This document shows positions 4,143 to 64,000 of a DNA stretch of 64,000 nucleotides, piece after piece. Every line of letters begins with the position of its first letter. The stretch's first letter is position 1. Under the pieces are notes generated by a model. The model worked only from the letters and a program-made list of their open reading frames with translations. It ran no database searches and was not told the DNA's origin. The stretch comes from Lentisphaera araneosa HTCC2155 (GTDB lineage Bacteria > Verrucomicrobiota > Lentisphaeria > Lentisphaerales > Lentisphaeraceae), in assembly GCF_000170755.1 (NCBI RefSeq), contig NZ_ABCK01000001.1:186001-250000 (forward strand), read 5' to 3'. Both the position numbers and the translations under genes were made by a program.

Positions 4143-5584
4143 CACAATCATCCCATAAATTTCTGAATTAGCTCATATCGCTTAATGTTTGTGCGTGTTA
4201 GCTATTATTTTCGTTGAAGGGGTTTGACGGTTTTAATTAAAACTGGACTTAATCAAACACATGCTGTCCCATAGAATGCCTTATCAAAGTTTGGTAGATA
4301 CGCTTGATCTGGAACGGCTTTGATCTTTGGCGGATCACTGGCTGTCCCACAAGTTTTTAAAAGTGAAGACAAATCGAAATAGCTCCATAACACTCCCCGT
4401 ATTAAAGTCGTAATTCTTGAGAAGGAATGTGGCCATTGAGATCTGAAAGCTAGAAACCTTAGTAAAACATAGGTAAGCAGAGCAGTCCAAACTTGCCATT
4501 GAATTGCATTTTTGTTATGTCCTAAAAAATCAGCTAACTTCAAGTTTTGTTTTAATTGCTTAAAAAAAACTTCAATGCCCCATCGCGATTGATAAATAGA
4601 AGCGATAGAGCTTGGTGCCCACTGTAAATTATTGCTTAGAAATTTCAGGACCTTCATTTTTCCATCAATCTCAACATTAGCGGCAACCAAACGGAGTATT
4701 TTGGGATAATGTTTTTCGGTATTCACACCATTCAGTTTAATGAGTTGATCTGATATAATATTACTTTTAGAGGATCGTTCCTCGATTATATCATAAGTCA
4801 TATTGTCTTTAGAACGGGTCACCCAATTGACTCCCCGGATATCAAGATGATAAAGGTGTTTGAAATCGACATAAGCTTTATCGAACACAACGATTTCACC
4901 GTCTTTAATAGTAGCACACATCTCCTTGGCTTCTGTTGAATCGTGAGTATTAGCTTCTTTAACAATTGCATAGGAAGGTAAAAAGGTCTGAAGGTTTAAT
5001 TGCATATGACATTTAGCCGCAGCTTTGCGGCGACGATGTTTAGCCCAGTCAAACAATGCGCTACTAACTGAATTGTCGTAGAATCAACCGCATATACGGC
5101 TCTTTTGAAACGTTTTGGGAAGTTTGAATTCTGTTTATCTAAACCAAAGCTAGGAAGTTGAGACTGCAGTGAATTTAAAACTTCCCAAAACAAATCTTCC
5201 GCCATTGCTGCATCCCGTGTTCGGTTGGCATTAGAGAAAGTGTTTCTTTTGGGTGCTGTCGCACCTCTAATCTGAAATAATGCACTGGAGTGATAATGTA
5301 AACCATCACATACATCATTTAAACTTAAAGCATGAGAGAGCTGAGTATATAATAAACTTACGACGTGACTCCACGAACTAAATTTTCGGGTCTTTATTCC
5401 ATGCTTCTTAGCAAGTTTATTGACTATGTGAGGTGGAATTAATTGGCAGATCTGTTTTAAGGTCGATAAATTACTCTTGTTTGGCTTCATTGTAGTTCCT
5501 TTATTTGTGGTAATCTAAAGTACTCAATGAAGTCAGACTTACTTTCAGTTAGTCCAAATTATAATTTCTTATGGGATGACTGTG
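4143..5584 (-). mobile_element. IS4-type insertion sequence with 9-bp target duplication
   Basis: The element is bounded by 16-base inverted ends, CACAATCATCCCATAA at 4143-4158 and its near-complement ending at 5584 (one mismatch). The same nine bases, ATCTCGAAA, sit at 4134-4142 and 5585-5593, directly outside the ends, and fit a target-site duplication; IS4 elements make 9-12 base duplications. The length is 1442 bp. It sits between a minus-strand sulfatase and the plus-strand kinase 1 gene, in what must have been their shared upstream region. The transposase it carries is frameshifted, so this copy is probably not active on its own. Confidence 0.9.
4253..5490 (-). pseudogene. IS4-family transposase, frameshifted
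   Basis: Two overlapping minus-strand frames together make one IS4-type DDE transposase of about 410 residues. The 5' frame (5490-4996) holds an N-terminal DUF4372-like region and reaches AVYAVDSTTIQLV, which carries the first catalytic Asp. The 3' frame (read from about 5056 to 4253) continues with FDWAKHRRRKAA, a second Asp in VVFDKAYVDF, and the Glu in YQSRWGIEVFFKQLKQNLK. The switch is a -1 step near 5056-5062 at a TTAGTAGC stretch, which is not a classical slippery heptamer, so a one-base loss is more likely than programmed frameshifting. All three catalytic residues survive, only in different frames. Confidence 0.88.
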
Positions 5585-5676: not shown

Positions 5677-7797
5677 GTGAGTAAAAAATATATTAAGCTC
5701 GATGATTTTTTTTCGGATTTCCAGGATGACCTAGGAGATCTCTACGATGGTGCCTTAGAACCTTCCAAGGAAGAACAGGAAGTACAAAAAATTATTGATC
5801 AGCTCCTAGAAAAGCGTTACCAAGGCGAAGTCTTTTTGGCTGAAGGGGGAATGAAGAAGATCATTCGCAGTCGTGATAGCCTTACCTCACGGGACGTCGC
5901 CATAGCCTTTCTCAAATCCGACGAAAAAGAAAAATTGAGTAGCTTTATCAAAGAAGCTCGCCTCAATGCCCGATTGCAGCATCCCAATATCATGACCGTG
6001 TATGATATCGGCGTCGACGATAAGAACGAAGTGTTTTTTACTATGAAGCTAATTGAGGGCCAAGAACTCGGTGACATTTTAAAAGATCTTCGTGAAGGAA
6101 AAAAATCTGCATACGACCTGCAAAAACTACTCTATATCTTTCTCAAGATTTGTGAAGCAATTGCCTTTGCTCATTCCAAAGCCATCCTTCATCTGGATCT
6201 CAAACCAGAGAATATTCAAGTAGGCGAATTTGGTGAGGTGCTCGTTTGCGACTGGGGCTTAGCCAAAGATCTCAAAGCAAACAAAGAAACTGCCGAAATT
6301 GAGCTCAATGAGCCACCAATTTTTAAAGCTGATAAAAACCTCGATTTGGATGTATGCTCCACCCTCGATGGTATAATCAAAGGTAGTCTCGGCTATATGG
6401 CACCGGAACAAGCCGAAGGACGCAATAAAGAAAAAGACGAACGCAGCGATATCTATAGCCTAGGTGCGATCCTCTACTCACTACTCACTTACGAAATTCC
6501 GGTAGATTCGAGCGACATTCACTCAGCCATACGTCAATGTGTCAGTGGAGCCATCGTCCTACCCTCAGTTCGAGCTTCGCACAAGATCCCCGAAGCCCTA
6601 GAAGCTGTCACCCTAAAAGCCATGGCAACTGATCCCAATCAGCGTTATCAGACGGTGGGTGCTTTGGTTAAAGATGTGGAAGCTTACCTAGGTGGTTTTG
6701 CGACCAGCGCAGAAGACGCCGACTTCATGACTCAAATCAAGCTCTTGATCAAAAGGAATAAGACAGCGAGCTCACTCATTGCGCTCTCATTTGTGATTAT
6801 TTCCCTGCTCATTGCTGCCTTTATTGATCAGATCTTCACTCGTGAAAAAGAAGCCGTACTTGCCAAAGAAAAAGCCCAAGAATTACAAGCTTTAGCAGAA
6901 AGTGAAACTCAACGTGCCGAAGCAGAAAATCAACTGCGTATGACCCTGAGTCGTAAAGCTGCTCCCGCTTTCTTTCGTCGCTCACAACTCACTTGGAAAA
7001 ATTATCAGTTCCTCGCTTTTGAGAACGCTATAAAAATGACTCTGGAGCTTGATGATAAATCAAAGAAGGCCTGGAACCTTTATGCCCTAAGCCTTTTGGG
7101 TGAAATGCAATTCGAAGCCGCTGATAAGGCATTTCAAAAGGGCTTTGGTGGCGAAGCTTACCAGCCATTTATCAGAAAATGGCGCCTGCTCAATATTCAA
7201 GAAACAAATGTGGCTCAATTTATTATCGACCTCCAAGAACTTGGGCTCAATCGAGAAATAGCCATCGTCATGAATCACTTTCAAAAAGATCGCGAATACA
7301 AAGATAAATACGTGTTTTTATCCACTATTATAAAAGCCACTTACGGTACGAAATCTAGCATAGAAGTCCAATACAATAGTAATGAACGCAGCATCAAGAT
7401 TGATGGTAAATACTTTCGTAAAATATCCCTCATAAATGGCATTGCCCTTAAAAAAATAGACCTTTCCAATACAGTGGTGACCAAGTTGGATTTGTTTCAT
7501 AGTTGGACACTACAAGAACTCAATTTAAGTAAAACAAAAGTCAGTGATATCCAAGCACTACAAAATAACCCCTTAGAAAACCTCGACATCTCTTACACCG
7601 CCGTAAATGATATCAATGTGCTTCAGGGTATGCCACTCAAAAAGCTAAATATTGCCGGCTTACGTCTCAAGAACCTCTCCCCCCTACTCAACTGCACACA
7701 ACTGGAACAACTTACCTTGAGTCAAGATATGGTCGCACGCGAGCCAAAAGTCGTCGAAGCCCTCAAAGAGAAATGTTCAGTCATCATTCTGGAATAA
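5677..7797 (+). CDS. Membrane Ser/Thr protein kinase 1 with leucine-rich tail, WNK-like lysine placement
   Basis: A 706-residue protein: N-terminal acidic segment (1-48), kinase domain (about 50-335), one membrane helix (about 362-385), coiled coil (390-425), a helical region, and a C-terminal leucine-rich part (about 590-690: LKKIDLSNT, LQELNLSKTKV, LENLDISYTAV, LKKLNIAGL). The catalytic loop is H172-L-D174-L-K-P-E-N179 and the metal-binding motif is D192-W-G rather than DFG. The VAIK lysine is replaced by alanine (VAIA, A77), while the glycine-rich loop carries K60 in GGMKKI. It starts with GTG; nearby ATGs are in other frames. It probably signals at the inner membrane with the leucine-rich part outside. 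Its promoter region was hit by the IS4 element. Confidence 0.9.
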   Translation: MSKKYIKLDDFFSDFQDDLGDLYDGALEPSKEEQEVQKIIDQLLEKRYQGEVFLAEGGMKKIIRSRDSLTSRDVAIAFLKSDEKEKLSSFIKEARLNARLQHPNIMTVYDIGVDDKNEVFFTMKLIEGQELGDILKDLREGKKSAYDLQKLLYIFLKICEAIAFAHSKAILHLDLKPENIQVGEFGEVLVCDWGLAKDLKANKETAEIELNEPPIFKADKNLDLDVCSTLDGIIKGSLGYMAPEQAEGRNKEKDERSDIYSLGAILYSLLTYEIPVDSSDIHSAIRQCVSGAIVLPSVRASHKIPEALEAVTLKAMATDPNQRYQTVGALVKDVEAYLGGFATSAEDADFMTQIKLLIKRNKTASSLIALSFVIISLLIAAFIDQIFTREKEAVLAKEKAQELQALAESETQRAEAENQLRMTLSRKAAPAFFRRSQLTWKNYQFLAFENAIKMTLELDDKSKKAWNLYALSLLGEMQFEAADKAFQKGFGGEAYQPFIRKWRLLNIQETNVAQFIIDLQELGLNREIAIVMNHFQKDREYKDKYVFLSTIIKATYGTKSSIEVQYNSNERSIKIDGKYFRKISLINGIALKKIDLSNTVVTKLDLFHSWTLQELNLSKTKVSDIQALQNNPLENLDISYTAVNDINVLQGMPLKKLNIAGLRLKNLSPLLNCTQLEQLTLSQDMVAREPKVVEALKEKCSVIILE

Positions 7798-20865: not shown

Positions 20866-22774
20866 GTACGCCTATGCGTACACAACATCAGCGAGGTGAA
20901 AGACCTCGTCAGGGTTGACCGTCAGCCCTGTAGTCGAAGTCAACTGCGTCGTTGTGAAACGGGGTGGGTAGTAGGGCCTAGACGAAATATCAGTCCGTAG
21001 GATGACGAACGCGTTTCGGCCGGTCAGGGTGTCGAGCCTGCTATATCATGGCGAAGACCAGAGAGCGGGAGGAAGAGCTGCGTAGCCTGAGGGCGAAGTA
21101 AGCCAACTGCTCAAGTTATACACGCTGAAGAAAGGCGGAAAGAAAAGCGGTGTATAGACGCTGACAGGTGTTTGGTGACGGAATGGTGTGAAGGTGTTGT
21201 GGATCAAGTAGGGAGACCTGTGTGGGCAGTACGGATTAATCCGCCACGCAGGAGTCAGAGCCCTCATAGTAGCGATGAAGGTGGTGAAAGTCACTGGAGC
21301 AAAGGGGGGCAGGAAGGTGAAACTGAGAAGAAAAGAATAGAAGGAATATAAGAATGTCAGAAATGGCTAAACAAATATTACGACGAGATGAACGCTTTGT
21401 TGAAATACAAGCGTGGGCGTCACCTTCTGTCTGGACGGATCAGATGCTGAAAACTCTTCATAGAGGAGTTGAAAGAGGCAAGTGGTACAGCTTATCAGAT
21501 AAGCTGATGCGTAAGAATAATATTATGGAGGCTTGGGAGAAAGTGTGTTCAAATAAGGGCAAACATGGAGTGGACATGGTATCAATCGAGCGCTACGAAT
21601 CAGAGCTGGAGTATAATAATGCTAAGCTTCTCGAAGAACTGCAAGATGGAAGGTATGATCCCAGTGCAGTGCGCCGAGTGGAAATCCCAAAAGGTGATGG
21701 TCGAAAGACCAGACCTTTGGGAATACCCACAGTGCGTGATCGAGTAGTTCAAACAGCTCTGAAACATGTGATAGAGCCGATATTCGATATCGACTTCTCG
21801 CCCTACAGTTTTGGATTTCGTCCAAAGCTGGGTTGCAAGGATGCACTTAGACGAGTGAATGAATTGTTAAAGCAGGGCTATCTCTATGTTATGGATGCCG
21901 ACATCCAAAGCTACTTCGATACTATACCACATGAGAAACTCATGAGTCGAGTCAAGGAAAAGATCATTGATGGTAAAATTCTTGATCTGATCGAACAATT
22001 CCTCAAAGCCAATATCTTTGATGGTCTCAAACATTGGGAACCTGAAGAAGGTACACCGCAGGGAGGAATTATCAGTCCTCTGTTAGCAAATATCTATCTT
22101 GATCTCTTTGATCACAAGATGACCGAGGCTGGATTCGAGATAGTGCGCTATGCAGACGATTTCCTGATCATGTGTAAAAGTAAAGAATCAGCCAAAAGGG
22201 CATTGCGCAAAACGCGAAGGTGGATGAAAGCCAATGGGCTGAAACTTCATCCAGAAAAAACGCGAATTGCCGACATGACAGAGAAGTGCGAGTACTTCGA
22301 GTTTCTCGGATACCATTTCGAGAGAACGCGAAATACACATCGCATTAAACGTTGGCCAAGGAAGCAGAGCCTGAAGAAATGCAAAGATGCCATACGCAAG
22401 AAAACGAGGAGAAGCAATAAGGACTCAATAGAGGACATAATTGCTTACCTTCGGCCAAATCTTCTCGGATGGTATCAATACTTCAAGCACTCCACTGTGT
22501 ATGCAATGCGAGGTATAGATGAATTTACACGCAGAAGACTGCGCAGTATTATAGCCAAATATAATCGCAAGAAAGGTTCTCATCGCATGATTGATACTCG
22601 TAAATACAATAAAGCCTACTTTACAGATCTAGGCTTCTTTTCACTGGAGGAAGCCTGGAAACTGGAATTTCAGTCTCTTCGGAGTAAGCACTGACTGGAG
22701 AGCCGTATGCGGGAGAACCGCACGTACGGTTCGGAAGGAGGGGAGACTCCGCAAGGAGTCTTCCCTACCCTTAT
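20866..22774 (+). mobile_element. Group II intron, copy A
   Basis: The 1909-bp element starts GTACGCC and ends CTACCCTTAT, fitting the GU...AY ends of group II introns. I placed the ends by comparison with uninterrupted 71-bp repeats at 60349-60560, where CACGGTATA is followed directly by AATTAGCC. The first 490 bases are the structured 5' domains. An RT/maturase frame follows (21354-22694). Domain V is at 22700-22732, beginning GAGCCGTATGC and closing GCACGTACGGTTC, with domain VI after it. The encoded protein is identical to that of copy B at 58369-60277, so movement or duplication was recent. Confidence 0.92.
21354..22694 (+). CDS. ltrA: Group II intron reverse transcriptase/maturase (copy A)
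   Basis: A 446-residue protein with reverse transcriptase blocks in order: RPLGIPTVRDRVVQTALKHV (block 2), SFGFRPKLGCKDAL (block 3), MDADIQSYFDTIPHEKL (block 4, first catalytic Asp), GTPQGGIISPLLANIYL (block 4-5), VRYADDFLI (block 5, the YADD pair), LHPEKTRI and FEFLGYHF. The maturase (X) domain follows, with LGWYQYFKHS. I see no HNH endonuclease domain; the frame stops six bases before domain V. It splices the intron RNA and copies it into DNA at the target. It has 100% protein identity to the frame at 58857. Confidence 0.96.
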   Translation: MSEMAKQILRRDERFVEIQAWASPSVWTDQMLKTLHRGVERGKWYSLSDKLMRKNNIMEAWEKVCSNKGKHGVDMVSIERYESELEYNNAKLLEELQDGRYDPSAVRRVEIPKGDGRKTRPLGIPTVRDRVVQTALKHVIEPIFDIDFSPYSFGFRPKLGCKDALRRVNELLKQGYLYVMDADIQSYFDTIPHEKLMSRVKEKIIDGKILDLIEQFLKANIFDGLKHWEPEEGTPQGGIISPLLANIYLDLFDHKMTEAGFEIVRYADDFLIMCKSKESAKRALRKTRRWMKANGLKLHPEKTRIADMTEKCEYFEFLGYHFERTRNTHRIKRWPRKQSLKKCKDAIRKKTRRSNKDSIEDIIAYLRPNLLGWYQYFKHSTVYAMRGIDEFTRRRLRSIIAKYNRKKGSHRMIDTRKYNKAYFTDLGFFSLEEAWKLEFQSLRSKH

Positions 22775-23023: not shown

Positions 23024-23743
23024 TTACCTATGACTATCCCACATGGTATCTGATGGATTGCTATTATCCCATGGGTAGCGTTGCCCTAAAAATGTTTGAG
23101 TGAGGGAAAGTCCCTTTGCGGAGCCATCGGTCATTAAATAATTCATTTCCCCCCAGCCATGTGACCAAAAGGAATCGCCACCATCTGGGTTCGTTACATG
23201 ACTAGTTTTCCTCACATGTCGATTAGGGGTTCCCAAATCATTTGCTGGAGCGGGATAATCCAGCAACATAATTGTCTCTGTAGGATTATTGATTTCGACA
23301 AGCCTTCTAACTACATCCTCATCACCATTGGTCATGCCCAATTGCGATCCTGGACCTGCTTGAGTCATCGAGTAAGAACGTGGGTGGCGACCACTTGGCG
23401 TTTCATCTAAAGGGCAAACATAGAGCTCTGAAGTTGTTGGCCACACTCCATCCATTTGATTTTCTGTTAAGTTCCGACCATCATAACCACCGCCTAAGCG
23501 ATCATCCCAGGTCTTAGTGGAACTTTGGGGCACATAATCATTATTGTCACCTGCGTACATAAATATGGCTGTGCCTAGCTGTTTTTGTTGGCTTAGGCAA
23601 ACAACTATTCTGCTTTGTTTTCTAGCTTTACTTAAAACTGGCATTAAAAAACTGGCTAAAATACCAATAATGGCGACCACCACGAGTATTTCAATTAAGC
23701 TGAATTTTACCGTTCTAAGAATTGTTTGTTTATTGTTTGTCAT
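23024..23743 (-). CDS. Prepilin-like (pseudopilin) surface protein
   Basis: A 239-residue protein from ATG 23743, chosen because GGAG lies 7 bases upstream; a TTG 12 bases earlier is less likely. Residues 14-40 hold [20 protein letters not shown], the prepilin cleavage/methylation motif plus hydrophobic helix. The C-terminal part has HGWGEMNYLMTDG, close to the H-X9-DG signature of the large planctomycete/Lentisphaera prepilin-like family, though with ten spacer residues. It is probably a type II secretion-like or surface filament subunit. It is transcribed divergently from kinase 2 across 151 bases. Its paralogue, split by an IS, lies at 17963-20617. Confidence 0.9.
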   Translation of the reverse strand: MTNNKQTILRTVKFSLIEILVVVAIIGILASFLMPVLSKARKQSRIVVCLSQQKQLGTAIFMYAGDNNDYVPQSSTKTWDDRLGGGYDGRNLTENQMDGVWPTTSELYVCPLDETPSGRHPRSYSMTQAGPGSQLGMTNGDEDVVRRLVEINNPTETIMLLDYPAPANDLGTPNRHVRKTSHVTNPDGGDSFWSHGWGEMNYLMTDGSAKGLSLTQTFLGQRYPWDNSNPSDTMWDSHR

Positions 23744-23826
23744 GTCTTGCTCCAATTAAACTTATATACTTAAAGTAAGAAATGAAAGTGTATGTTTTCT
23801 CAGCTAGTACTAAGTTTTTGTAAGAA

Positions 23827-23894: not shown

Positions 23895-25979
23895 ATGTCA
23901 GATTTAGAAGAATCATTTCAAGAACTGGACTGCGACTTTCAGAAATTCTATCAAAGCGATGAATTAAGTGAATTTGCGGAATCAAGTTACCCCATTTTAG
24001 AAAGCTTAAAGTCGAGTAGCAAGCATTACTCAGACGAGGAATTCATTGCTCAGGGGGGCGAGAAAAAGATTTTCAAAGTAAAGGATACTCAGGCCGATCG
24101 CTTTATCGCCCTCGCACGACCTTTGGATTCAGCTGAACCCCAACAAATTGAATCCTTTCTTCGCGAAGCCCGCATAAGTTCCTTTCTTCAGCATCCCAAT
24201 ATTCTCAGTGTATATGAAATGAGTCTTGACCAAGAAGGCGAGCCCTTTTTTACTATGGAGCTCATGAAAGGTGAAAGCCTCTTAAGTATACTCAATAAAA
24301 TCAAAGATAATGATGCGCAAAGCATCGAAAAATACCCCTTGCCAAAACGTATTGATATTTTTCAAAAAATCTGCAGCGCGCTTTCCTATGCGCATTCCAA
24401 AAATATTCTTCACCTCGATATTAAACCCGCCAACATCCAAGTTGGAGAACACGGAGAAGTCTTACTCTGTGATTGGGGACTCGCTAAAATCATGAAGAAT
24501 TTCGAAAAACAAAATTCACAAGCCATTGACCTCTCTCAAATCAGCCCAGACCCCTTATTACTCAATGAACATACACTTGTGGGGCAAATTAAGGGAACCC
24601 CGGGTTTTATGAGTCCTGAGCAAATTAACCACCAAGAGGAACTGAGCCCCGCTAGTGATATCTATGCTTTAGGTTCATTGCTTTACTCATTACTGACTCA
24701 TAAAAATGCCTTTGATGGTAGCCACCAAGATATTCTTACTCGCACTCTGGAAGCTCCTCCTCTAGCACCCAGTGTGAAATGTTCCCACAAAGTCCCACGT
24801 GCCTTAGAGGCTATCTGCTTAAAAGCCATGTCTCTAATACCCACAGATCGTTATGCTCAACTTGCAGATTTGGAAAAAGACCTCGAACTTTATCAGCAAG
24901 GCTACCCCGTCAAAGCCCAGAAAGCGCGACTCTCGCTTTATCTCAGCTCTTGGTTTAAGAGACATAAAAAGACGGTGGGTTTAAGTAGCTTTTTCCTCCT
25001 GCTTATCAGCGCCATTATTTTCTTATCTTTCAAGGAAATCCAAGAAGAACGCAATGAGGCCATTAGTGAAAAAGTTCGTGCCGAAGAAAACCTTAGACTC
25101 TTTCGACAAGAACAAGCCATTGCCGAAAAAAACCGCCAGCTCTATGAACAGGAAAATAACTTAAATACAGTTCAAGCCGATTACTTTTACGAAACGATCA
25201 ACAATCTCTATGAGCTTGATAACTACACCGATGCGACTAAGAGAATTAAAGCCATAAATAAACACCTTGAGCGAGAAAAAGATCCCAAACGCTTAGAAAA
25301 AATATTTGCCTATAAAGCAGGTTTGTATTTTGTTTTGCAAGATTATTCCCAATGCCTCGAGACGCTCAAGAAAATTGATATTAGCAAGTATGGGAAATTA
25401 AAGTCACTCTATGATATCTCACACAATTTTGCTCCTCGCTTAAACAAAAACTCGCGTCTTTCAGGCGAAGACCTCGAGCAACTCGCTTTACGATTCCCTA
25501 ATCATATTACTAGCATGCTCTATTATACCTATTACTATCACACCATGATGGGACCTAGGAAACCCGAGGAGAATCTAAAAACAGTCAAAGTTCTTCTCAA
25601 TCGAATCAATTTGCTCACGTCGAAAACTGATCGCCCTATTACGCTCACGAAAAGCCTTGATGCTAGCTATCAACTCGATTTAAGCCATCATAAATACAGT
25701 CACTTAGCCATGCCCATTCCCGTGAATCGACGCCAAAGGAATTTGCTTTTAGGCCTCAATGTAAACAAGCTAGATTTGAGCTACAGCAAATTTAATGATG
25801 GCACTCAACTTATAGGCTATAATTTAGACGAACTTCATATTCGAGGAATTCATAAAGTCAATAATTTACGCTTACTCACTACGGGTAAAATTAAAATGAT
25901 TTACCACAACTTAGAGCTCTCAGATCAAGACTTGGCTGAATTATATCCGAAGACTCAATTCCTACGAATCCAGGATTAA
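23895..25979 (+). CDS. Membrane Ser/Thr protein kinase 2, WNK-like lysine placement
   Basis: A 694-residue protein built like kinase 1: N-terminal acidic segment, kinase domain (about 48-335), one membrane helix (about 356-376), coiled coil, helical repeats and a leucine-rich tail (NKLDLSYSKF, LDELHIRGIHKV). The catalytic loop is HLDIKPANI and the metal site is CDWGLAK. The usual beta-3 lysine is alanine (IALA, A74), while the glycine-rich loop has K57 in GGEKKI; the helix-C Glu is E91. A GAGGAA ribosome site precedes the ATG. It ends 7 bases from the end of the convergent sigma factor gene, which may be its functional partner. It is divergent from a prepilin-like gene. Confidence 0.92.
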   Translation: MSDLEESFQELDCDFQKFYQSDELSEFAESSYPILESLKSSSKHYSDEEFIAQGGEKKIFKVKDTQADRFIALARPLDSAEPQQIESFLREARISSFLQHPNILSVYEMSLDQEGEPFFTMELMKGESLLSILNKIKDNDAQSIEKYPLPKRIDIFQKICSALSYAHSKNILHLDIKPANIQVGEHGEVLLCDWGLAKIMKNFEKQNSQAIDLSQISPDPLLLNEHTLVGQIKGTPGFMSPEQINHQEELSPASDIYALGSLLYSLLTHKNAFDGSHQDILTRTLEAPPLAPSVKCSHKVPRALEAICLKAMSLIPTDRYAQLADLEKDLELYQQGYPVKAQKARLSLYLSSWFKRHKKTVGLSSFFLLLISAIIFLSFKEIQEERNEAISEKVRAEENLRLFRQEQAIAEKNRQLYEQENNLNTVQADYFYETINNLYELDNYTDATKRIKAINKHLEREKDPKRLEKIFAYKAGLYFVLQDYSQCLETLKKIDISKYGKLKSLYDISHNFAPRLNKNSRLSGEDLEQLALRFPNHITSMLYYTYYYHTMMGPRKPEENLKTVKVLLNRINLLTSKTDRPITLTKSLDASYQLDLSHHKYSHLAMPIPVNRRQRNLLLGLNVNKLDLSYSKFNDGTQLIGYNLDELHIRGIHKVNNLRLLTTGKIKMIYHNLELSDQDLAELYPKTQFLRIQD

Positions 25980-25986
25980 GAAGTGC

Positions 25987-26577
25987 TTATTCTAAGTCTT
26001 GTCTAAGTTTATTAATTTCCTTAGCAAAACGCTCTTTCATGCGAAAACGTAGATTATAAACTACTTTTTCCTCAGCCTCCATATATTTAGCGACTTCCGC
26101 AACCGATGCCCCCTTGAGGCACATTCTAAAACCTTCTACAGCGAGCTCATCATAATCTTTTGCCATGATCGCAAAAGCTCGATTGGTCAGATAAATTTGC
26201 CATTCACTTTTCGCAATTGTTTCAATTTCGGGAAGGCGAATTGAGTTTAAGTAATCTTCATCAAAAGCTTTTTGATCACGCTTAACTTGACGTTTGCCTT
26301 GGTCAATAAAATCTAAAACCTCATGTTTAGTGACCACGCTCAAAAAAGCTCGAAAGCTCTTTTGTTCATCGTACGTCATTGTCGGAAGCTTTTTCCATAA
26401 GTTCATCATAATGCGCTGAACGATGTCATCTGCATCAGCGGCATTGATATTCATGCGTCGGATAATGGCATAGATATAGCGTTTATAGACTTCAGAAAAC
26501 TCAGCCCACGCATCATCATTATATTGATCTTTGATACGCAAAAGAAGTGTTTTTCTGGTTTTGTAAATATCGCTCAT
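25987..26577 (-). CDS. ECF-type RNA polymerase sigma factor
   Basis: A 196-residue sigma factor of the same subfamily as those at 10343 and 47731. Region 2 runs AWAEFSEVYKRYIYAIIRRM, then DADDIVQRIMMNLWKKLPTM and SFRAFLSVVTKHEVLDFI; region 4 is AVEGFRMCLKGASVAEVAKY with VVYNLRFRMKERF. It lies tail to tail with kinase 2 with only 7 bases between the stops. It has no adjacent anti-sigma gene. Some ECF groups are controlled by Ser/Thr kinases instead of anti-sigma factors, so kinase 2 is a plausible regulator, though nothing in the sequence proves this. The leader GGTAGATTTATATG resembles that of the sigma gene at 10942. Confidence 0.93.
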   Translation of the reverse strand: MSDIYKTRKTLLLRIKDQYNDDAWAEFSEVYKRYIYAIIRRMNINAADADDIVQRIMMNLWKKLPTMTYDEQKSFRAFLSVVTKHEVLDFIDQGKRQVKRDQKAFDEDYLNSIRLPEIETIAKSEWQIYLTNRAFAIMAKDYDELAVEGFRMCLKGASVAEVAKYMEAEEKVVYNLRFRMKERFAKEINKLRQDLE

Positions 26578-28030: not shown

Positions 28031-28741
28031 ATGACTAAAAAAATACATAATAGCTTTACACTTATTGAACTGCTAGTGGTTATTGCCATTATCGGAATAT
28101 TAGCAAGCCTGCTACTCCCCTCTTTAAGTAAAGCCAGAAAAACGTCTCTCTCTGCAGTTTGTAACAAGCAGATGAGACAAATTATCATCGCTGAACACAT
28201 GTACACCTCAGATAACAATGGTGAGTTCGTCTATGTCAGGGATGACAGCGGAACAGGCGTGTGGGATATGTATTTAGCCCAAAATTATATGAATGCCCCC
28301 ATAAGTGATGCTGTACGCAAACCTGTAAATATCAATATTACTGAAACAAGTCACCCTGCTATTTATAATGCTATGAAAAAAATCATTCTCTGCCCCAATG
28401 ACACAAAATGGAAAAGCAGTATTGCCGGAACTTTGCGCAGGACCTACGCGAAAAGTATGAGAACTTCTGGTGTTAATACCATTTACGACAATTTAAATAT
28501 TACAAGTATTGAGAGACCCTCAGAAATATTTCAGTTTATTGAACAACAATACAGCACTAATATCTTAGCAAAAGTTAGTCATGCCGGCTATCTCGATGCT
28601 GCACGCTGGCAACTCATGGCAAACGCTCTCCCCAAACTCACTTTTCACAAAAGTTCTCACTATAACTACGCCTTTGTCGACGGGTCAGTACGACTCAAGG
28701 AAGCTTTCACCGCCGCCGCCGGTGATCACTGGCGCCCCTAA
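28031..28741 (+). CDS. Prepilin-like (pseudopilin) surface protein
   Basis: A 236-residue protein with [20 protein letters not shown] at residues 9-28, the prepilin peptidase motif and hydrophobic helix. Its C-terminus HKSSHYNYAFVDGSVRL is a variant of the H-X9-DG signature of this family. An AAGGAT site lies 8 bases before the ATG. It stands between two carbohydrate-esterase genes on the same strand, so it may be co-expressed with the polysaccharide machinery. It is more distant in sequence from the other four prepilin-like genes in the window than they are from their own pairs. Confidence 0.9.
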   Translation: MTKKIHNSFTLIELLVVIAIIGILASLLLPSLSKARKTSLSAVCNKQMRQIIIAEHMYTSDNNGEFVYVRDDSGTGVWDMYLAQNYMNAPISDAVRKPVNINITETSHPAIYNAMKKIILCPNDTKWKSSIAGTLRRTYAKSMRTSGVNTIYDNLNITSIERPSEIFQFIEQQYSTNILAKVSHAGYLDAARWQLMANALPKLTFHKSSHYNYAFVDGSVRLKEAFTAAAGDHWRP

Positions 28742-54423: not shown

Positions 54424-54455
54424 GGCTCGGAGTCTACTTTTGATCCGGGCCTTTT
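54424..54455 (+). terminator. Hairpin terminator between secreted protein and kinase 3
   Basis: GGCTCGGA at 54424-54431 pairs with TCCGGGCC at 54444-54451 (one G-T pair), followed by TTTTCTTTC. It overlaps the 3' end of the minus-strand kinase gene. Confidence 0.7.
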
Positions 54456-56488
54456 CTTTCTTCGACAATAATATTCTTACGCATTTGCTTGAGGTCTTTA
54501 GCGTCAAATTGTCCGGGGATAATAATTATTTTTTTTAGGTCAACCCTATCCTGAAGAAGTCGAAATTTTTCGAATCTAACTTTAGTCCAACGGATATCTA
54601 TGGTGTGTAGTTTTAGGCCCAAGAGCCGCTCAAGATCATCGGTACGACTATTTCTGAGGTCGAGTGAATTTACCTTGAGTGGACTCAATGCATTAAAAGG
54701 TTTTTCTGTCGCAATCGGTAAAATATACATTTGGTAAGGTGCCCCCCTCAAGCTGAGGTGCCCCGACTGATCACTCTCCAAGTCAAAGCCTTCGTAAGTC
54801 CAGTGGGCCACATTGTTGAGTAAATCTAAAATATTTTTAACGGCTTTTAGATATGATTGCGGCGAATCATCTGTACTTCGCAGGACGTGATAATAAAAGG
54901 TTTGGTAAGCCACGTGCTTATCTTGAAAACTGATAAAACGTTCTAGTAAATCACCCAATTGATGGTTAGTCAAAAGAGCTTGATCATCACTTTTTATCTT
55001 TGCATAATCACTCGCTATTTTGTGGAGCTCTGTATTTAAGCCCTCATAGGATTTTGCTGCTTGATTGAATTCTTGCAGAGTAAAATGTAAGTCTCCTTTA
55101 AAACTCGAAAGTTGATTCTTATCTAAGTCGCTATCGGGATCCGATAGGGCTTTATCCACTGACTCAATCATGATCCGTGTCGTTTCGTAATGTCCACCAA
55201 GCGAACTTTGGTGCACGACCGAACGCAAATCTTTATCAAGCTTTTGTTTGAGTTCGTTTTCAATCTTATAGAGGCGGAAATTTTCTTCTGCTTTATGCTG
55301 TGCAAGGAGTGCCTGATTCTTTTCAGAACTAATGCGTATGAATGAGTAAATGGCAAAAACAAAGAGTAGACAAAGAAAGATAAAACTTAGGCTTACCGTT
55401 TTCTGGTGTCGCTTCAGTAAGAGTTGAATCTGTACCCAAGTTGACGCATGCTGAGCCTCGGTTGCATAGCCATCTTTAAATTTTACAATTTCTTCACGAA
55501 GTTCATCCACTGATTGATAACGATGACTCATTTCAAGGGATAAAGCTTTCATCGCCACCGCACTCAAGCTAGCCGGGATATTTCGGTCCGGTGACATCTG
55601 CTCTGGAGGGATAATGAGCCCTTGCTTTGTTTTGCAAATGAGTTCTTCTAAATCATCTGCGTTTACAGGTGCTTTTGTACTAAGTATGGTGTAAAGAATG
55701 GCGCCCAAAGCATAAACATCGGTCAAAGTACTTTTTTCACAATCATCACCAATTTGTTCGGGTGCCAAGTACCCAGGAGTTCCCTTAATGAGCCCAGAGA
55801 GAGTTAAATCATTAAGGATTTCGAGGTCCTCTATTTCCTGGTGAGAGTTGGTGGGTGTGGGCTTAGTATTAACAATTTTTGCCAAGCCCCAGTCATACAA
55901 AATTACTTCACCAAAGTCACCCACATTTATATTATCTGGCTTGAGGTCGAGATGGATAACATCCCTGGAATGGGCATAGGCCATGGCATCACAAACTTTA
56001 ATGAAGATATCTAAAAGTTCATTTAAACTGATTTTAGGCGACTTGTTTAGTGCCTGATTTTTAATGAGCTGTCCTAAACTTTGCCCAGAAATATAATCCA
56101 TGGTAAAAAAAGGCTGGCCCTGATCATTAAGTCCGATGTCATGAATCGACATAATATTAGGGTGTTGTAAACGAGCAGTGATTCGCGCTTCTCGCAAAAA
56201 GTCTTCGTAATCTATTTGATTGTCTTCTTTTAGGGAGCTCGCTAAGGCAACTTCGCGACCTGCGCAAAAATCATAAACGCGATCAATTCTTTTTTCACCT
56301 CCACTCACTGAAGATAGAACTTCTCCATAACGTTGACGGTCAATGCGCAAGGAACTTAAGAGAGGTGTGACTTCACACATTTCATTTTCATCTAAATTCG
56401 TGAAGTCGTATAGATCTCTTAAATTTAGTTGTTCACTAAATTCGCTTTCTAATTCATCTAAATTCTGTAATTTCTTTGAAAGGTCCAT
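54434..56488 (-). CDS. Membrane Ser/Thr protein kinase 3, WNK-like lysine placement
   Basis: From ATG 56488 (MDLSKKLQNLDELESEF, matching the start of kinase 2) this gives 684 residues; a GTG at 56548 is less likely. Domains are as in kinases 1 and 2: kinase (about 55-340), membrane helix (TVSLSFIFLCLLFVFAIYSF), coiled coil and leucine-rich tail (VNSLDLRNSRTDDLERLLGL). The catalytic loop is HLDLKPDNI and the metal site is YDWGLAK. The VAIK lysine is alanine (VALA, A83), and K66 is in the glycine-rich GGEKRI. Two prepilin-like genes lie upstream on the same strand, the first 190 bases away. Confidence 0.9.
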   Translation of the reverse strand: MDLSKKLQNLDELESEFSEQLNLRDLYDFTNLDENEMCEVTPLLSSLRIDRQRYGEVLSSVSGGEKRIDRVYDFCAGREVALASSLKEDNQIDYEDFLREARITARLQHPNIMSIHDIGLNDQGQPFFTMDYISGQSLGQLIKNQALNKSPKISLNELLDIFIKVCDAMAYAHSRDVIHLDLKPDNINVGDFGEVILYDWGLAKIVNTKPTPTNSHQEIEDLEILNDLTLSGLIKGTPGYLAPEQIGDDCEKSTLTDVYALGAILYTILSTKAPVNADDLEELICKTKQGLIIPPEQMSPDRNIPASLSAVAMKALSLEMSHRYQSVDELREEIVKFKDGYATEAQHASTWVQIQLLLKRHQKTVSLSFIFLCLLFVFAIYSFIRISSEKNQALLAQHKAEENFRLYKIENELKQKLDKDLRSVVHQSSLGGHYETTRIMIESVDKALSDPDSDLDKNQLSSFKGDLHFTLQEFNQAAKSYEGLNTELHKIASDYAKIKSDDQALLTNHQLGDLLERFISFQDKHVAYQTFYYHVLRSTDDSPQSYLKAVKNILDLLNNVAHWTYEGFDLESDQSGHLSLRGAPYQMYILPIATEKPFNALSPLKVNSLDLRNSRTDDLERLLGLKLHTIDIRWTKVRFEKFRLLQDRVDLKKIIIIPGQFDAKDLKQMRKNIIVEERKGPDQK

Positions 56489-56678
56489 TATTGCGTAAGG
56501 CTCACTTTTAAAAGCTAATAAGATGAATGAATAGAACGAATGCTTCACTCATATAGTACAGCTAAAGATAAAGGCTCTTTGAGTCTTTGTTCAAGTAAAG
56601 TACTCTAAAAAAGAAATTTATTCACAATAATGAGTTCCCGTACACAAGTTCAGATATTATATCGAGAACTAAGAGATA

Positions 56679-57314
56679 TTAGGGTGTCCAAGTATCATCT
56701 CGGTAATTCTTTGAGGCCATATAAAGCAGCTGTATTGCTGAAGTCGCTTCAACGTGGCCATCTATAAATGCCACGTTACCTTTACCTTGATGACGTGCGA
56801 CGCGAAACCCCTCTTCTACATTATAAACGGCATCTTCATCTAAACCGCCTTTCCAGAGGATAGCATTATTATTATAGGCATCGAGAAAAAATACTGTTGA
56901 GGAAGCGTGAGTTGATTCTAAGCTCAGGTTAGCATGCCAGTCCTCTTGCACAGCAACGCCATTATCCCAACCCAGTCGCCAATTCATCCCGTAATTGATC
57001 CCCCAGTAATCCGTTATATCCGCTCCATTTGGACACTTATATATGTTCGAAGTATCGTCGAGGTCAATCGCGGGCAAAAAGTCATTAATCGATAATTTTT
57101 TCGCCCAAGGGTCACTATTTTCATTTATGGGCGCAAAATTATCCTCATCATCGGAATACATTAAAGCGGCTAGACTAATCTGTTTAAGTTTGTTCACACA
57201 GACAGCTGCTTGTGAACGTTCTCTGGCTTTGCCCAAGGCGGGTAAAAGCATCGAGGCTAAAATCCCGATAATGGCAATAACGACTAATAATTCTATAAGT
57301 GTAAACTTTTTCAT
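56679..57314 (-). CDS. Prepilin-like (pseudopilin) surface protein
   Basis: A 211-residue protein. [20 protein letters not shown] at residues 4-23 is the prepilin cleavage/methylation motif and helix, and [12 protein letters not shown] is an exact H-X9-DG signature. GAGAG precedes the ATG. It is a close paralogue of the next gene upstream (57402), with matching blocks such as [17 protein letters not shown] against YWGMNYAMNWRLGYDNG. It is probably a surface or secretion filament subunit; the pair looks like a tandem duplication. Confidence 0.92.
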
Positions 57315-57401: not shown

Positions 57402-58037
57402 TTATGGCTTCCAGATTTCATCGGAGTCAGTAACTGAACCCATATACAGCCACTGCTCACCTGTACGCGACTCTACATGACCATCGAGAAAAGATACATT
57501 ACCCTTATTTGCATGGCGAGCCACATTTAAGCCTGGTCCAGTATTATAAACGGCATTTTCATCGAGCCCACCTCTCCACATGATTGCATTATTATTGTAA
57601 GCATCCATAAAAAAGACAGTTTCAGACGCATGAGTACTCAAAATTGAAAAATTCTCGTGGAACCCAGTTTGTTCATCTGTTCCATTATCATAGCCAAGAC
57701 GCCAGTTCATGGCATAATTCATCCCCCAGTAATCAATTAAATCGGCACCCTCTGGGCAGCTGTAGATATTACTCTTATTGCTTATATCAATTTCAGGTAA
57801 ATAATTATTCAGAGAGAGTTTTCTACCCCAAGGACTCCCTCCCTCATTGAGGGGGGCATAATCATCGGACTCTTCTGAGTAGATAAAGGCAGCCATGGAA
57901 ATTTGTTTGAGTTTATTCATACAAACCGTCGTCTGAGACTTCTTTCTAGCTTTTCCTAAAGCTGGTAAAAGTAGGGACGATAAAATACCGATTATGGCGA
58001 TCACCACGAGTAATTCTATCAGTGTAAATTTTTTCAT
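57402..58037 (-). CDS. Prepilin-like (pseudopilin) surface protein
   Basis: From ATG 58037 (GAGAGG upstream) this gives 211 residues with [20 protein letters not shown] and the signature HANKGNVSFLDG. It lies 87 bases upstream of its paralogue on the same strand, and both precede kinase 3. The mature domain has conserved aromatic residues (CPEGADLIDYWG) shared with the paralogue. The upstream region 58050-58314 has no gene but carries a GGGAGCCCCCGCGGGCGG block related to 32444. Confidence 0.92.
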   Translation of the reverse strand: MKKFTLIELLVVIAIIGILSSLLLPALGKARKKSQTTVCMNKLKQISMAAFIYSEESDDYAPLNEGGSPWGRKLSLNNYLPEIDISNKSNIYSCPEGADLIDYWGMNYAMNWRLGYDNGTDEQTGFHENFSILSTHASETVFFMDAYNNNAIMWRGGLDENAVYNTGPGLNVARHANKGNVSFLDGHVESRTGEQWLYMGSVTDSDEIWKP

Positions 58038-58314
58038 TATGCCTCTCAATAAGATTAGTTTAAACAGAAGACGAAAGATCTATGAGAGTTTAGACAAATC
58101 ACTCAAATAATTTCAAAAAGACTCATCATAAAATTTATACTCAGTCGGTAAGCTCAAGTGATTTTTCTTTTGGCTTTTACTATTATAATGTTTATCGCTT
58201 ATCAGCGGGATGCGGGGAGCCCCCGCGGGCGGTTTAATAATTTTAATAGAAATTTTAAATGATCTGAGTTAATCAGTGAAATCTGTGGATGAAGTCTTAT
58301 CCGCAATTGCCAAG

Positions 58315-58368: not shown

Positions 58369-60277
58369 GTACGCCTATGCGTACACAACATCAGCGAGGT
58401 GAAAGACCTCGTCAGGGTTGACCGTCAGCCCTGTAGTCGAAGTCAACTGCGTCGTTGTGAAACGGGGTGGGTAGTAGGGCCTAGACGAAATATCAGTCCG
58501 TAGGATGACGAACGCGTTTCGGCCGGTCAGGGTGTCGAGCCTGCTATATCATGGCGAAGACCAGAGAGCGGGAGGAAGAGCTGCGTAGCCTGAGGGCGAA
58601 GTAAGCCAACTGCTCAAGTTATACACGCTGAAGAAAGGCGGAAAGAAAAGCGGTGTATAGACGCTGACAGGTGTTTGGTGACGGAATGGTGTGAAGGTGT
58701 TGTGGATCAAGTAGGGAGACCTGTGTGGGCAGTACGGATTAATCCGCCACGCAGGAGTCAGAGCCCTCATAGTAGCGATGAAGGTGGTGAAAGTCACTGG
58801 AGCAAAGGGGGGCAGGAAGGTGAAACTGAGAAGAAAAGAATAGAAGGAATATAAGAATGTCAGAAATGGCTAAACAAATATTACGACGAGATGAACGCTT
58901 TGTTGAAATACAAGCGTGGGCGTCACCTTCTGTCTGGACGGATCAGATGCTGAAAACTCTTCATAGAGGAGTTGAAAGAGGCAAGTGGTACAGCTTATCA
59001 GATAAGCTGATGCGTAAGAATAATATTATGGAGGCTTGGGAGAAAGTGTGTTCAAATAAGGGCAAACATGGAGTGGACATGGTATCAATCGAGCGCTACG
59101 AATCAGAGCTGGAGTATAATAATGCTAAGCTTCTCGAAGAACTGCAAGATGGAAGGTATGATCCCAGTGCAGTGCGCCGAGTGGAAATCCCAAAAGGTGA
59201 TGGTCGAAAGACCAGACCTTTGGGAATACCCACAGTGCGTGATCGAGTAGTTCAAACAGCTCTGAAACATGTGATAGAGCCGATATTCGATATCGACTTC
59301 TCGCCCTACAGTTTTGGATTTCGTCCAAAGCTGGGTTGCAAGGATGCACTTAGACGAGTGAATGAATTGTTAAAGCAGGGCTATCTCTATGTTATGGATG
59401 CCGACATCCAAAGCTACTTCGATACTATACCACATGAGAAACTCATGAGTCGAGTCAAGGAAAAGATCATTGATGGTAAAATTCTTGATCTGATCGAACA
59501 ATTCCTCAAAGCCAATATCTTTGATGGTCTCAAACATTGGGAACCTGAAGAAGGTACACCGCAGGGAGGAATTATCAGTCCTCTGTTAGCAAATATCTAT
59601 CTTGATCTCTTTGATCACAAGATGACCGAGGCTGGATTCGAGATAGTGCGCTATGCAGACGATTTCCTGATCATGTGTAAAAGTAAAGAATCAGCCAAAA
59701 GGGCATTGCGCAAAACGCGAAGGTGGATGAAAGCCAATGGGCTGAAACTTCATCCAGAAAAAACGCGAATTGCCGACATGACAGAGAAGTGCGAGTACTT
59801 CGAGTTTCTCGGATACCATTTCGAGAGAACGCGAAATACACATCGCATTAAACGTTGGCCAAGGAAGCAGAGCCTGAAGAAATGCAAAGATGCCATACGC
59901 AAGAAAACGAGGAGAAGCAATAAGGACTCAATAGAGGACATAATTGCTTACCTTCGGCCAAATCTTCTCGGATGGTATCAATACTTCAAGCACTCCACTG
60001 TGTATGCAATGCGAGGTATAGATGAATTTACACGCAGAAGACTGCGCAGTATTATAGCCAAATATAATCGCAAGAAAGGTTCTCATCGCATGATTGATAC
60101 TCGTAAATACAATAAAGCCTACTTTACAGATCTAGGCTTCTTTTCACTGGAGGAAGCCTGGAAACTGGAATTTCAGTCTCTTCGGAGTAAGCACTGACTG
60201 GAGAGCCGTATGCGGGAGAACCGCACGTACGGTTCGGAAGGAGGGGAGACTCCGCAAGGAGTCTTCCCTACCCTTAT
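58369..60277 (+). mobile_element. Group II intron, copy B
   Basis: The same 1909-bp element as copy A, starting GTACGCC and ending CCCTTAT, at a constant offset of 37503 bases. It is inserted after CACGGTATA and before AATTAGCC, at the junction of two 71-bp repeat units. Domain V is at 60203-60235. The RT/maturase frame is identical in protein to copy A. Confidence 0.93.
58857..60197 (+). CDS. ltrA: Group II intron reverse transcriptase/maturase (copy B)
   Basis: A 446-residue protein identical to the frame at 21354, including MDADIQSYFDTIPHEKL, GTPQGGIISPLLANIYL, VRYADDFLI and the maturase block LGWYQYFKHS. It has no HNH endonuclease domain. Identity over the full protein and the shared intron ends indicate that one copy was derived from the other recently, or that gene conversion keeps them identical. 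Confidence 0.96.
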   Translation: MSEMAKQILRRDERFVEIQAWASPSVWTDQMLKTLHRGVERGKWYSLSDKLMRKNNIMEAWEKVCSNKGKHGVDMVSIERYESELEYNNAKLLEELQDGRYDPSAVRRVEIPKGDGRKTRPLGIPTVRDRVVQTALKHVIEPIFDIDFSPYSFGFRPKLGCKDALRRVNELLKQGYLYVMDADIQSYFDTIPHEKLMSRVKEKIIDGKILDLIEQFLKANIFDGLKHWEPEEGTPQGGIISPLLANIYLDLFDHKMTEAGFEIVRYADDFLIMCKSKESAKRALRKTRRWMKANGLKLHPEKTRIADMTEKCEYFEFLGYHFERTRNTHRIKRWPRKQSLKKCKDAIRKKTRRSNKDSIEDIIAYLRPNLLGWYQYFKHSTVYAMRGIDEFTRRRLRSIIAKYNRKKGSHRMIDTRKYNKAYFTDLGFFSLEEAWKLEFQSLRSKH

Positions 60278-62773: not shown

Positions 62774-64000
62774 ATAAGGGTAGGGAAAGCTCCTTGCGGA
62801 GCCTCCCCTCCTTCCGAACCGTACGTGCGGATCTCCCGCATACGGCTCTCCGGTCAATGCTTACTCCGAAGAGACTGAGATTCCAATAGCCAAGCCTCTT
62901 CCAGTGAAAAGAACCCTAGCTCTGCAAAGTATTTCTTGGTATATTTCCTGTTATCTATAAAGCGATGTGAACCTTTCTTACGATTGTACTTAGCGATAAT
63001 ACTTCGTAACCTTCGACGAAAGAAAGCATCAACTTCGAGCATAGCCCAACGATTTGAGTGTTTGAAGTACTCATACCAACCTTTGAGACTAGGCCTGAGA
63101 CCTTTAATGATTTCTTCTACCGATTGCCAGTTACAACGCCTCGTATGCTTTCGCACAGTGTCTTTCATTTTAGCCATACTCTGTTTTCTTGGCCACCTAT
63201 TTATCCTGCCCGTTCTTTTCGAGCGCTCAAAGTGATAACCTAGAAATTCAAAGTACTCATCCTGCTGATTCATGTCGGCAATTCGGGTTTTATCGGGATG
63301 GAGGTTCAGACCATGAGCCTTCATCCAACGCTTGATTTTGCGCAAGCCCCGCTTAGCCGATTTCGCATTATCACACATCACCAGAAAGTCATCCGCATAC
63401 CTTACGATTTCAAAGCCAGCCGCTGTCATCCTGTGGTCGAATTCATTGAGGTAAATATTGGCAAGTAGTGGGCTAATTACGCCTCCTTGCGGAGTCCCTT
63501 TCTCGGGCTCCCACTCCTTGATCCCATCAAATATTCCTGCTTTGAGGAAAGCTTCTATAAGATCTAGGGTCTTGCCATCGCTTATTTTCTCTTTGACTCG
63601 TTCCATGAGTTTGTCGTGCGGTATCATATCAAAGTAACTTTGAATATCCGCATCAATGACGTAGAGCTGTCCCTGCGTAAGTAGATGATGAACACGCCGA
63701 AGCGCATCTTTACATCCACGTTGCGGACGAAAACCAAAACTTTGTGTAGAAAAATCCACATCATATATCGGTTCAATAACATTCTTGAGCGCAGTCTGAA
63801 CAACTCTATCGCGCACGGTCGGTATTCCCAAAGCACGCGTTTTACCATCTGCTTTTGGGATCTCTACCCTGCGAACGCATTGTGGCAGGTAAGTCCCTGC
63901 CTGCAGTTGCTTCATCAATTGCTTTGTATTGTGCTCTAGCTCTGATTCGTAACGATCCAAGCTCACCATATCCACCCCGTGACTCCCGCCGTTTGCACGA
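62774..64000 (-). mobile_element. Group II intron, divergent third copy, 5' end beyond window
   Basis: Read on the minus strand it ends CTACCCTTAT at 62774. Domain V at 62848-62816 differs from copies A and B in one loop base (GGGAGATCC against GGGAGAACC). The 3' exon begins CCAGGGGGGCGC, unlike the 71-bp repeat. A GCTCG-TTC-CGAGC hairpin lies just downstream of the junction. The encoded protein differs from A and B at many positions, so this is a related but separate lineage. Confidence 0.88.
62854..64000 (-). CDS. ltrA: Group II intron reverse transcriptase/maturase, N-terminus beyond window
   Basis: At least 382 residues are in view, starting CANGGSHGVDMVSLDRYESE at the window edge (compare SNKGKHGVDMVSIERYESE in copies A and B). 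The catalytic blocks IDADIQSYFDMIPHDKL, GTPQGGVISPLLANIYL and VRYADDFLVM are intact, as is the maturase end LKGWYEYFKHSNRW. An internal ATG at 63975 is not the real start. It appears functional. Confidence 0.93.
   Translation of the reverse strand, partial: RANGGSHGVDMVSLDRYESELEHNTKQLMKQLQAGTYLPQCVRRVEIPKADGKTRALGIPTVRDRVVQTALKNVIEPIYDVDFSTQSFGFRPQRGCKDALRRVHHLLTQGQLYVIDADIQSYFDMIPHDKLMERVKEKISDGKTLDLIEAFLKAGIFDGIKEWEPEKGTPQGGVISPLLANIYLNEFDHRMTAAGFEIVRYADDFLVMCDNAKSAKRGLRKIKRWMKAHGLNLHPDKTRIADMNQQDEYFEFLGYHFERSKRTGRINRWPRKQSMAKMKDTVRKHTRRCNWQSVEEIIKGLRPSLKGWYEYFKHSNRWAMLEVDAFFRRRLRSIIAKYNRKKGSHRFIDNRKYTKKYFAELGFFSLEEAWLLESQSLRSKH

Follow-up and report, generated by a model that had tools for sequence, protein, structure and literature searches.

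The three kinases encoded in the window, that is, the whole 64,000-nucleotide stretch of Lentisphaera araneosa HTCC2155 DNA analyzed here (contig NZ_ABCK01000001.1, positions 186,001 to 250,000), belong to an unusually expanded family of Hanks-type kinases with a convergent WNK-type active site, and this family is tied to sigma factors. In its members, hereinafter referred to as A72/K55 kinases (PKA numbering), the canonical lysine of beta strand 3 (K72) is replaced by alanine, and a lysine is found at position 55 in the glycine-rich loop. We consider it likely that these kinases form a transmembrane family of single origin, which carries a WNK-type lysine swap, has stayed catalytically competent, and phosphorylates its partner sigma factors; within this picture, ATP contact, catalysis, and sigma phosphorylation are the steps that we infer.

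The three kinases (K1, K2, and K3; Table 1) all matched Pfam Pkinase with E-values of 2e-30 to 4e-35, and the ORF of K3 can be extended to a GTG at 56548. The glycine loop and beta-3 motifs were GGMKKI and VAIA in K1, GGEKKI and IALA in K2, and GGEKRI and VALA in K3, and the helix-C Glu, the HLDxKPxN catalytic loop, and the DWG motif were found in all three. The ORFs and motifs were as given in an earlier note on this DNA, which had reported the replacement of the beta-3 lysine by alanine and the retention of the catalytic motifs; both were seen again in each of the three proteins. The same note had spoken of three paralogues. Related kinases do exist, but the number was far too low, as the genome of this organism alone encodes 60; family size, paired ECF sigma genes, and other coupled active-site changes had not been part of that account.

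Table 1. Positions of the kinases, their key codons, and the neighboring sigma factor gene in the window.
Feature	Position	Strand	Details
K1, second A72/K55 kinase of the window	5677..7797	+	706 aa; loop Lys K60, beta-3 Ala A77
Codon of K1 K60, glycine-loop lysine	5854..5856	+	
K2, transmembrane Hanks-type kinase with A72/K55 swap	23895..25979	+	694 aa; ORF, Pfam Pkinase, motifs, WNK1/PknB alignment, AF2 pLDDT 89
K2 key residues			Loop Lys K57, beta-3 Ala A74, helix-C Glu E91, D175, N180, D193
Codon of K2 K57, glycine-loop lysine at the WNK1 Lys233 position	24063..24065	+	Invariant in 114/114 family domains
Codon of K2 A74, the counterpart of the canonical beta-3 lysine (PKA K72)	24114..24116	+	Ala in 114/114
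Part of K2 beyond the membrane helix, with coiled coil, TPR-like helices, and LRR-like repeats	25032..25976	+	AF2 model
ECF sigma factor gene in convergent orientation to K2, with 8 bp between them	25987..26577	-	Pfam Sigma70_r2 E 4e-13; NCBIfam sigma70-ECF
K3, third A72/K55 kinase	54434..56488	-	684 aa from ATG; loop Lys K66, beta-3 Ala A83
Codon of K3 K66, glycine-loop lysine	56291..56293	-	

The position of the relocated lysine was determined by alignment of K2 with WNK1 (6cn9) and PknB (3f61), in which no gap occurred between the glycine loop and beta 3. K57 of K2 was paired with Lys233 of WNK1 and a Ser of PknB, and A74 was paired with Cys250 of WNK1 and Lys40 of PknB, so that the WNK-like placement previously proposed for the loop lysine of all three kinases was borne out. 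An AF2 model of K2 residues 1-345 (114 sequences in the alignment, pLDDT 89.2) gave a complete kinase fold, in which beta 3 contains A74, helix C contains E91, and K57 sits where beta 2 begins; its nearest solved fold in a comparison with the PDB was PknB. Across 114 aligned kinase domains of the family, K57, A74, E91, H173, D175, N180, D193, and G195 were invariant. Since the mean column identity of this alignment was only 40%, the swap is not due to chance. K57 was also the sole invariant lysine of the N-lobe. This family-wide invariance, together with the lack of any other conserved N-lobe lysine, upholds, at the sequence level, the idea of a WNK-type lysine in enzymes that are probably active.

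The exchange was equally strict in larger sets of kinases. In the L. araneosa genome (6.02 Mb, 81 contigs), 105 protein kinase matches were identified; by motif, 60 carried A72 with K55, 27 carried K72 with G55, and seven carried K72 with Ala or Ser at position 55. Thus, K55 was present in 60 of 60 A72 kinases and in none of the 34 K72 kinases. Among 338 distinct kinase domains that were fetched, 164 were of the A72/K55 type and 170 of the K72 type, the others being one A72 sequence truncated before the loop and three without the whole N-lobe. The beta-3 position was Ala in all 164 family members; K55 occurred in 0/170 K72 kinases, and there was no complete A72 kinase that lacked K55. Complete sequences therefore had a lysine at 72 or at 55, never at both and never at neither. 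In addition, three proteins of about 1100-1200 aa from the L. araneosa genome (L093, L095, and L096) had degraded kinase domains with Arg at the beta-3 place and Asn or Ser in place of the catalytic Asp; judged from these residues, they look like true pseudokinases.

Three further active-site changes, affecting the HRD arginine, the floor of the adenine pocket, and the residue before the DFG-type motif, travel with the lysine swap. The positions (K2 numbering) that differed most from K72 relatives with DWG were 74 and 57, followed by 182, 174, 284, 233, and 192. Position 174, the HRD arginine, was Leu in 159 of 164 A72/K55 kinases, which makes them non-RD kinases. Position 182, two residues after the catalytic Asn, was mostly Gln (100 of 164), Arg (29), or His (7), whereas nearly all K72 kinases had a hydrophobic residue there, such as Met or Leu. 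The residue that immediately precedes DWG, at position 192, was Cys in 114/164, as against Met in most K72 relatives with DWG. From PKA and PknB structures, we take position 182 to correspond to PKA L173 in the floor of the adenine pocket and position 192 to belong to this pocket as well. A polar residue is uncommon at this floor position, and nucleotides could be bound weakly or in an altered way as a result. The DWG motif itself was considered as a part of the swap and rejected, because it was common in the K72 relatives (97/147).

The main alternative is that the A72/K55 kinases are pseudokinases, in which catalysis was lost together with the beta-3 lysine, the loop lysine is structural, and the protein binds the sigma factor or serves as a scaffold. 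A kinase without its beta-3 lysine is, as commonly defined, a pseudokinase (PMC12599244), and the altered adenine-floor and DFG-1 residues and the lost HRD arginine point in the same direction. However, the helix-C Glu (E91), the catalytic Asp, and the metal-binding Asp of the DFG-type motif were retained in 164/164 members, and N180 in 114/114 at the column identity mentioned above, and the lysine is fixed exactly at the place where it rescues WNK. The bacterial pseudokinase families described so far (DYD, DLHK, ActPs1-3, GLW, and CP1), many of which resemble the A72/K55 kinases in having no canonical beta-3 lysine, mostly show a degraded HRD and/or DFG motif or no helix-C Glu, and for none of them has a shift of a lysine into the glycine loop been described (PMC12599244). 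As every other catalytic residue is invariant in a widely radiated family, we regard the pseudokinase explanation as rather unlikely.

A different role can be considered for the cavity left at beta 3. Along with the alterations of the adenine floor (Gln or Arg at PKA L173 and Cys in front of DWG), it might form a regulatory ligand site, an idea to which we give little credence. If it were true, each cell would have dozens of kinase-sigma pairs gated in parallel by an anion or a small metabolite, and a ligand inside the kinase active site would be a convergent bacterial counterpart of halide sensing by WNK.

It is also conceivable that the enzymes are active but hold the ATP phosphates by R69 or by a lysine after beta 3, with the loop lysine being incidental. 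R69 was Arg in 113/114 domains, and basic residues after beta 3 were frequent. However, R69 is an improbable substitute because it lies before beta 3 and is also present in PknB beside the normal lysine. The residues after beta 3 were not conserved: in the column of K80 of K1, which had been named earlier as a possible competing ATP lysine and can be set aside as such, only 30 and 23 of 114 domains had Lys and Arg, respectively. K57, in contrast, is invariant and was gained on the same tree branch that lost K72, and we therefore find this alternative very unlikely.

In a tree of 103 kinases, for which the three trait columns had been masked out, all A72/K55 kinases fell on one side of a single branch (SH-aLRT 93), so only one origin is needed for the swap; one change was observed on this tree, compared with 34.6 expected when the trait was shuffled. 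Because the coupling traces to one evolutionary event, the counts given above reflect strict retention and not 164 independent tests. The family branched from within bacterial K72 kinases that carry DWG, most of them members of the PVC group. PknB/Stk1-type kinases (3f61) and kinases of the PVC group such as chlamydial PknD (NF009651) were its nearest relatives in fold and sequence. The PVC K72 relatives share DWG with the A72/K55 kinases, but the K72 relatives that were fetched differ in having the beta-3 lysine, Gly, Ser, or Ala at position 55, mostly the HRD arginine, and mostly Met in the adenine pocket.

The swap spans the class Lentisphaeria, part of the classes of Pontiella and of Verrucomicrobiota JB023, and one genome of Planctomycetota. 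In the class Lentisphaeria, 24 of the 25 best new loci, from many families, carried it. It was also found in Pontiellaceae B1224 and in Verrucomicrobiota JB023. In the class of the former, all complete strong-match loci that were checked (about 27 genomes of 240 searched) had the swap; in the class of JB023, it was carried by the strongest matches, which came from about 12 of 335 genomes, and was missing from the weaker ones. In the Planctomycetota sample, it was found in one of 343 genomes, and no A72/K55 kinase was present among 24 relatives found on viral contigs.

The likeness to WNK1 lies in the active site, namely a lysine at the place of PKA G55, no beta-3 lysine, and retention of the helix-C Glu and of the catalytic and metal-binding Asp. 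In WNK1, Lys233 takes the place of Lys72 and the enzyme is active (PMC4718504, PMC1821047). The A72/K55 family differs from WNK in its separate bacterial origin, beta-3 Ala (Cys in WNK), DWG (DLG in WNK), absence of the HRD arginine, changed adenine floor, transmembrane layout, TPR/LRR-like tail, and link to ECF sigma factors. When PAK1, NEK7, and PKA were added to the tree, WNK1 grouped with the eukaryotic kinases (support 98), and a joint clade of WNK1 and the A72/K55 kinases was rejected (p-AU 0.00097; for WNK1 and NEK7, masking of the beta-3 column missed the correct position by one in this alignment). All four eukaryotic sequences, those of WNK1, PAK1, NEK7, and PKA, were checked against PDB entries. 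With WNK1 as the only eukaryote, a joint clade had a p-AU of 0.64, but this test is uninformative because of the very long branch of WNK1. Since the joint clade was rejected once other eukaryotic kinases were included, the relocation of the lysine is convergent with that in WNK, and membership in or descent from WNK is not supported. That the family derives from or was exchanged with eukaryotic WNK, as a bacterial WNK with chloride sensing, is thus extremely unlikely; the identical ungapped positions of the loop lysine and the missing beta-3 lysine would fit such a history, as would the test with WNK1 alone, but the rejection of the joint clade, the nesting among bacterial DWG kinases, and the Ala and DWG in place of Cys and DLG speak against it. 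Chloride sensing, suggested earlier by analogy with WNK, is likewise not supported by the sequences and has a low probability: at the DLGL positions of the chloride pocket, the residue equivalent to WNK1 Leu369 was Trp in 113/114 domains, although the second Leu (WNK1 Leu371) was kept in 96/114, and DWG is common in K72 relatives.

A single membrane helix, already noted for the three window kinases, was predicted in each of them and in 141 of 146 long family members. In the AF2 model of K2 residues 380-694 (pLDDT 93), a long coiled coil was followed by TPR-like helical hairpins and then by short LRR-like beta repeats; compared with the PDB, this tail model gave no strong match (best E 0.02). 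The leucine-rich tail described before was therefore partly recovered, in the Pfam LRR_4 match of K1 and the LRR-like repeats of K2, but the tail of K2 is also coiled-coil and TPR-like. In the single-pass layout, the kinase domain would lie on one side of the membrane, and the coiled-coil/TPR-like/LRR-like region, which may sense or dimerize, on the other.

The sigma factor gene that converges on K2 is likely the partner of this kinase. In the L. araneosa genome, an ECF sigma gene was located within about 1 kb of 50 of 60 A72/K55 kinases, compared with 5 of 33 K72 kinases, as counted from genome-wide positions, with about 7% expected from gene density. Seen from the other side, 50 of the 90 Sigma70_r2 matches of this genome adjoin an A72/K55 kinase. 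In the usual layout, the sigma gene immediately precedes the kinase gene on the same strand, and the two often overlap by a few bases at the kinase start; the convergent layout, as at K2, is a second type. An adjacent sigma gene was also found for 15/15 kinases in the class of JB023, 23/27 in the class of Pontiella, and 20/23 in other Lentisphaeraceae. In the remaining class Lentisphaeria (outside Lentisphaeraceae), it was found for 3/24, with flanks of only 1.5 kb. Neither K1 nor K3 had a sigma gene within about 1 kb. Directly upstream of K1, a DUF4372-type transposase gene (4253-5490) was apparently split over two frames, and an insertion at this place may have separated K1 from a former neighbor.

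Phosphorylation of an ECF sigma factor by a neighboring Hanks kinase has been shown for PknS and EcfK (PMC13147305), and EcfP of ECF43 provides a second precedent for a Hanks kinase acting on a neighboring ECF sigma factor (PMC8999054). In the ECF43 systems PknS-EcfK (Xanthomonas) and PknT-EcfP (Vibrio), as in the A72/K55 family, a Hanks kinase gene adjoins an ECF sigma gene; PknS, however, is described as having a canonical Hanks kinase fold, whereas the A72/K55 kinases carry the swap. Planctomycetes also have kinase-linked sigma groups (ECF59, ECF61, ECF62, and ECF217), likened here to the partner sigma factors by kinase neighborhood only. By analogy with PknS and EcfK, the A72/K55 kinases probably switch their neighboring ECF sigma factors by Ser/Thr phosphorylation. 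The switch is not exactly that of ECF43, since sigma factors of that group have no DAED motif (PMC8999054) and in the Lentisphaera partner sigma factors, region 2.2 is still acidic and DAED-like, with an acidic residue at position 51 in 58/58 and at position 50 in 79%. In addition, all 56 alignable partner sigma factors had in common a T-R-x-(T/S)-L-(L/I)-like motif near the N terminus, in which Thr7 is invariant and position 10 is Thr or Ser. From its conservation, the invariant N-terminal Thr is a possible target of the kinase.

In the mechanism that we favor, the lysine that anchors ATP no longer resides in beta 3, where Ala now occupies the place of PKA K72, but has taken over the site of the third loop glycine (PKA G55) at the beginning of beta 2. 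From there, it most likely contacts the ATP phosphates and pairs with the retained helix-C Glu; the proposed catalytic competence of the A72/K55 enzymes would depend on these two contacts. The enzymes would operate as non-RD kinases with a remodeled adenine pocket; without the HRD arginine, they are unlikely to be switched by phosphorylation of the activation loop. A signal across the membrane would most likely be read by the coiled-coil/TPR-like/LRR-like region and would change the oligomeric or folded state of the kinase, which would bind ATP by the loop lysine and then phosphorylate the neighboring sigma factor.

Other genes in the window and around the kinases were also inspected. Two 446-aa ORFs (21354-22694 and 58857-60197) had the same first 90 and last 29 residues, and the ORF at 62854-63975 was related to this pair; all three look like group II intron reverse transcriptases. 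Pseudopilin-like genes with an N-terminal methylation motif were located at 23024-23755, 28031-28741, 56679-57314, and 57402-58049, beside kinases and sulfatases, and two such genes lay upstream of K3. A pilin-like gene was present within 1.2 kb of 16/60 A72/K55 kinases and 0/34 K72 kinases, and a sulfatase gene was detected by BLAST within 1.2 kb of 23/60 and 1/34, respectively; in both comparisons, many flanks of the K72 kinases were short. For sulfatases, this 6-Mb genome gave at least 151 matches and 340 first-look candidates, and the sulfatase enrichment near the kinases was therefore given little weight. A role in a defense system was rejected, as the PADLOC matches were general kinase matches and nothing near the genes suggested defense.

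WNK has been described as the sole functional family of eukaryotic-type protein kinases without K72 (PMC1821047). A shift of the positive charge from position 72 to 55 was reported for CAK-chloro (PMC1821047; Kannan 2007), which resembles the A72/K55 kinases in this respect but has Arg at 55, Met at 72, and Phe in place of the helix-C Glu. The members of CAK-chloro are choline/aminoglycoside-kinase-like enzymes and do not belong to the eukaryotic-type protein kinases. In a 2025 review of pseudokinase families in bacteria, WNK was mentioned only as an analogy, and no Lentisphaerae, Verrucomicrobia, or Planctomycetes were named (PMC12599244). In the literature, no report of bacterial protein kinases with a WNK lysine was found, although a 42-family atlas of bacterial kinases may list them otherwise.

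If the favored reading is true, the A72/K55 family would be a second, independent, and highly amplified case, and would show that so central a catalytic residue can change its place in a lineage that remains active and can persist there through several classes. With more than 160 natural sequences, the family can teach which other residues have to change, such as the HRD arginine, the adenine floor, and the DFG-1 residue. Standard annotation would label some 60 proteins per genome as pseudokinases, though their conserved residues suggest that they are probably active. Whether relocation of the lysine comes with ligand sensing becomes testable in bacteria. For the biology of L. araneosa, the adjacency counts mean that A72/K55 kinases may control half of the ECF sigma factors of the cell.
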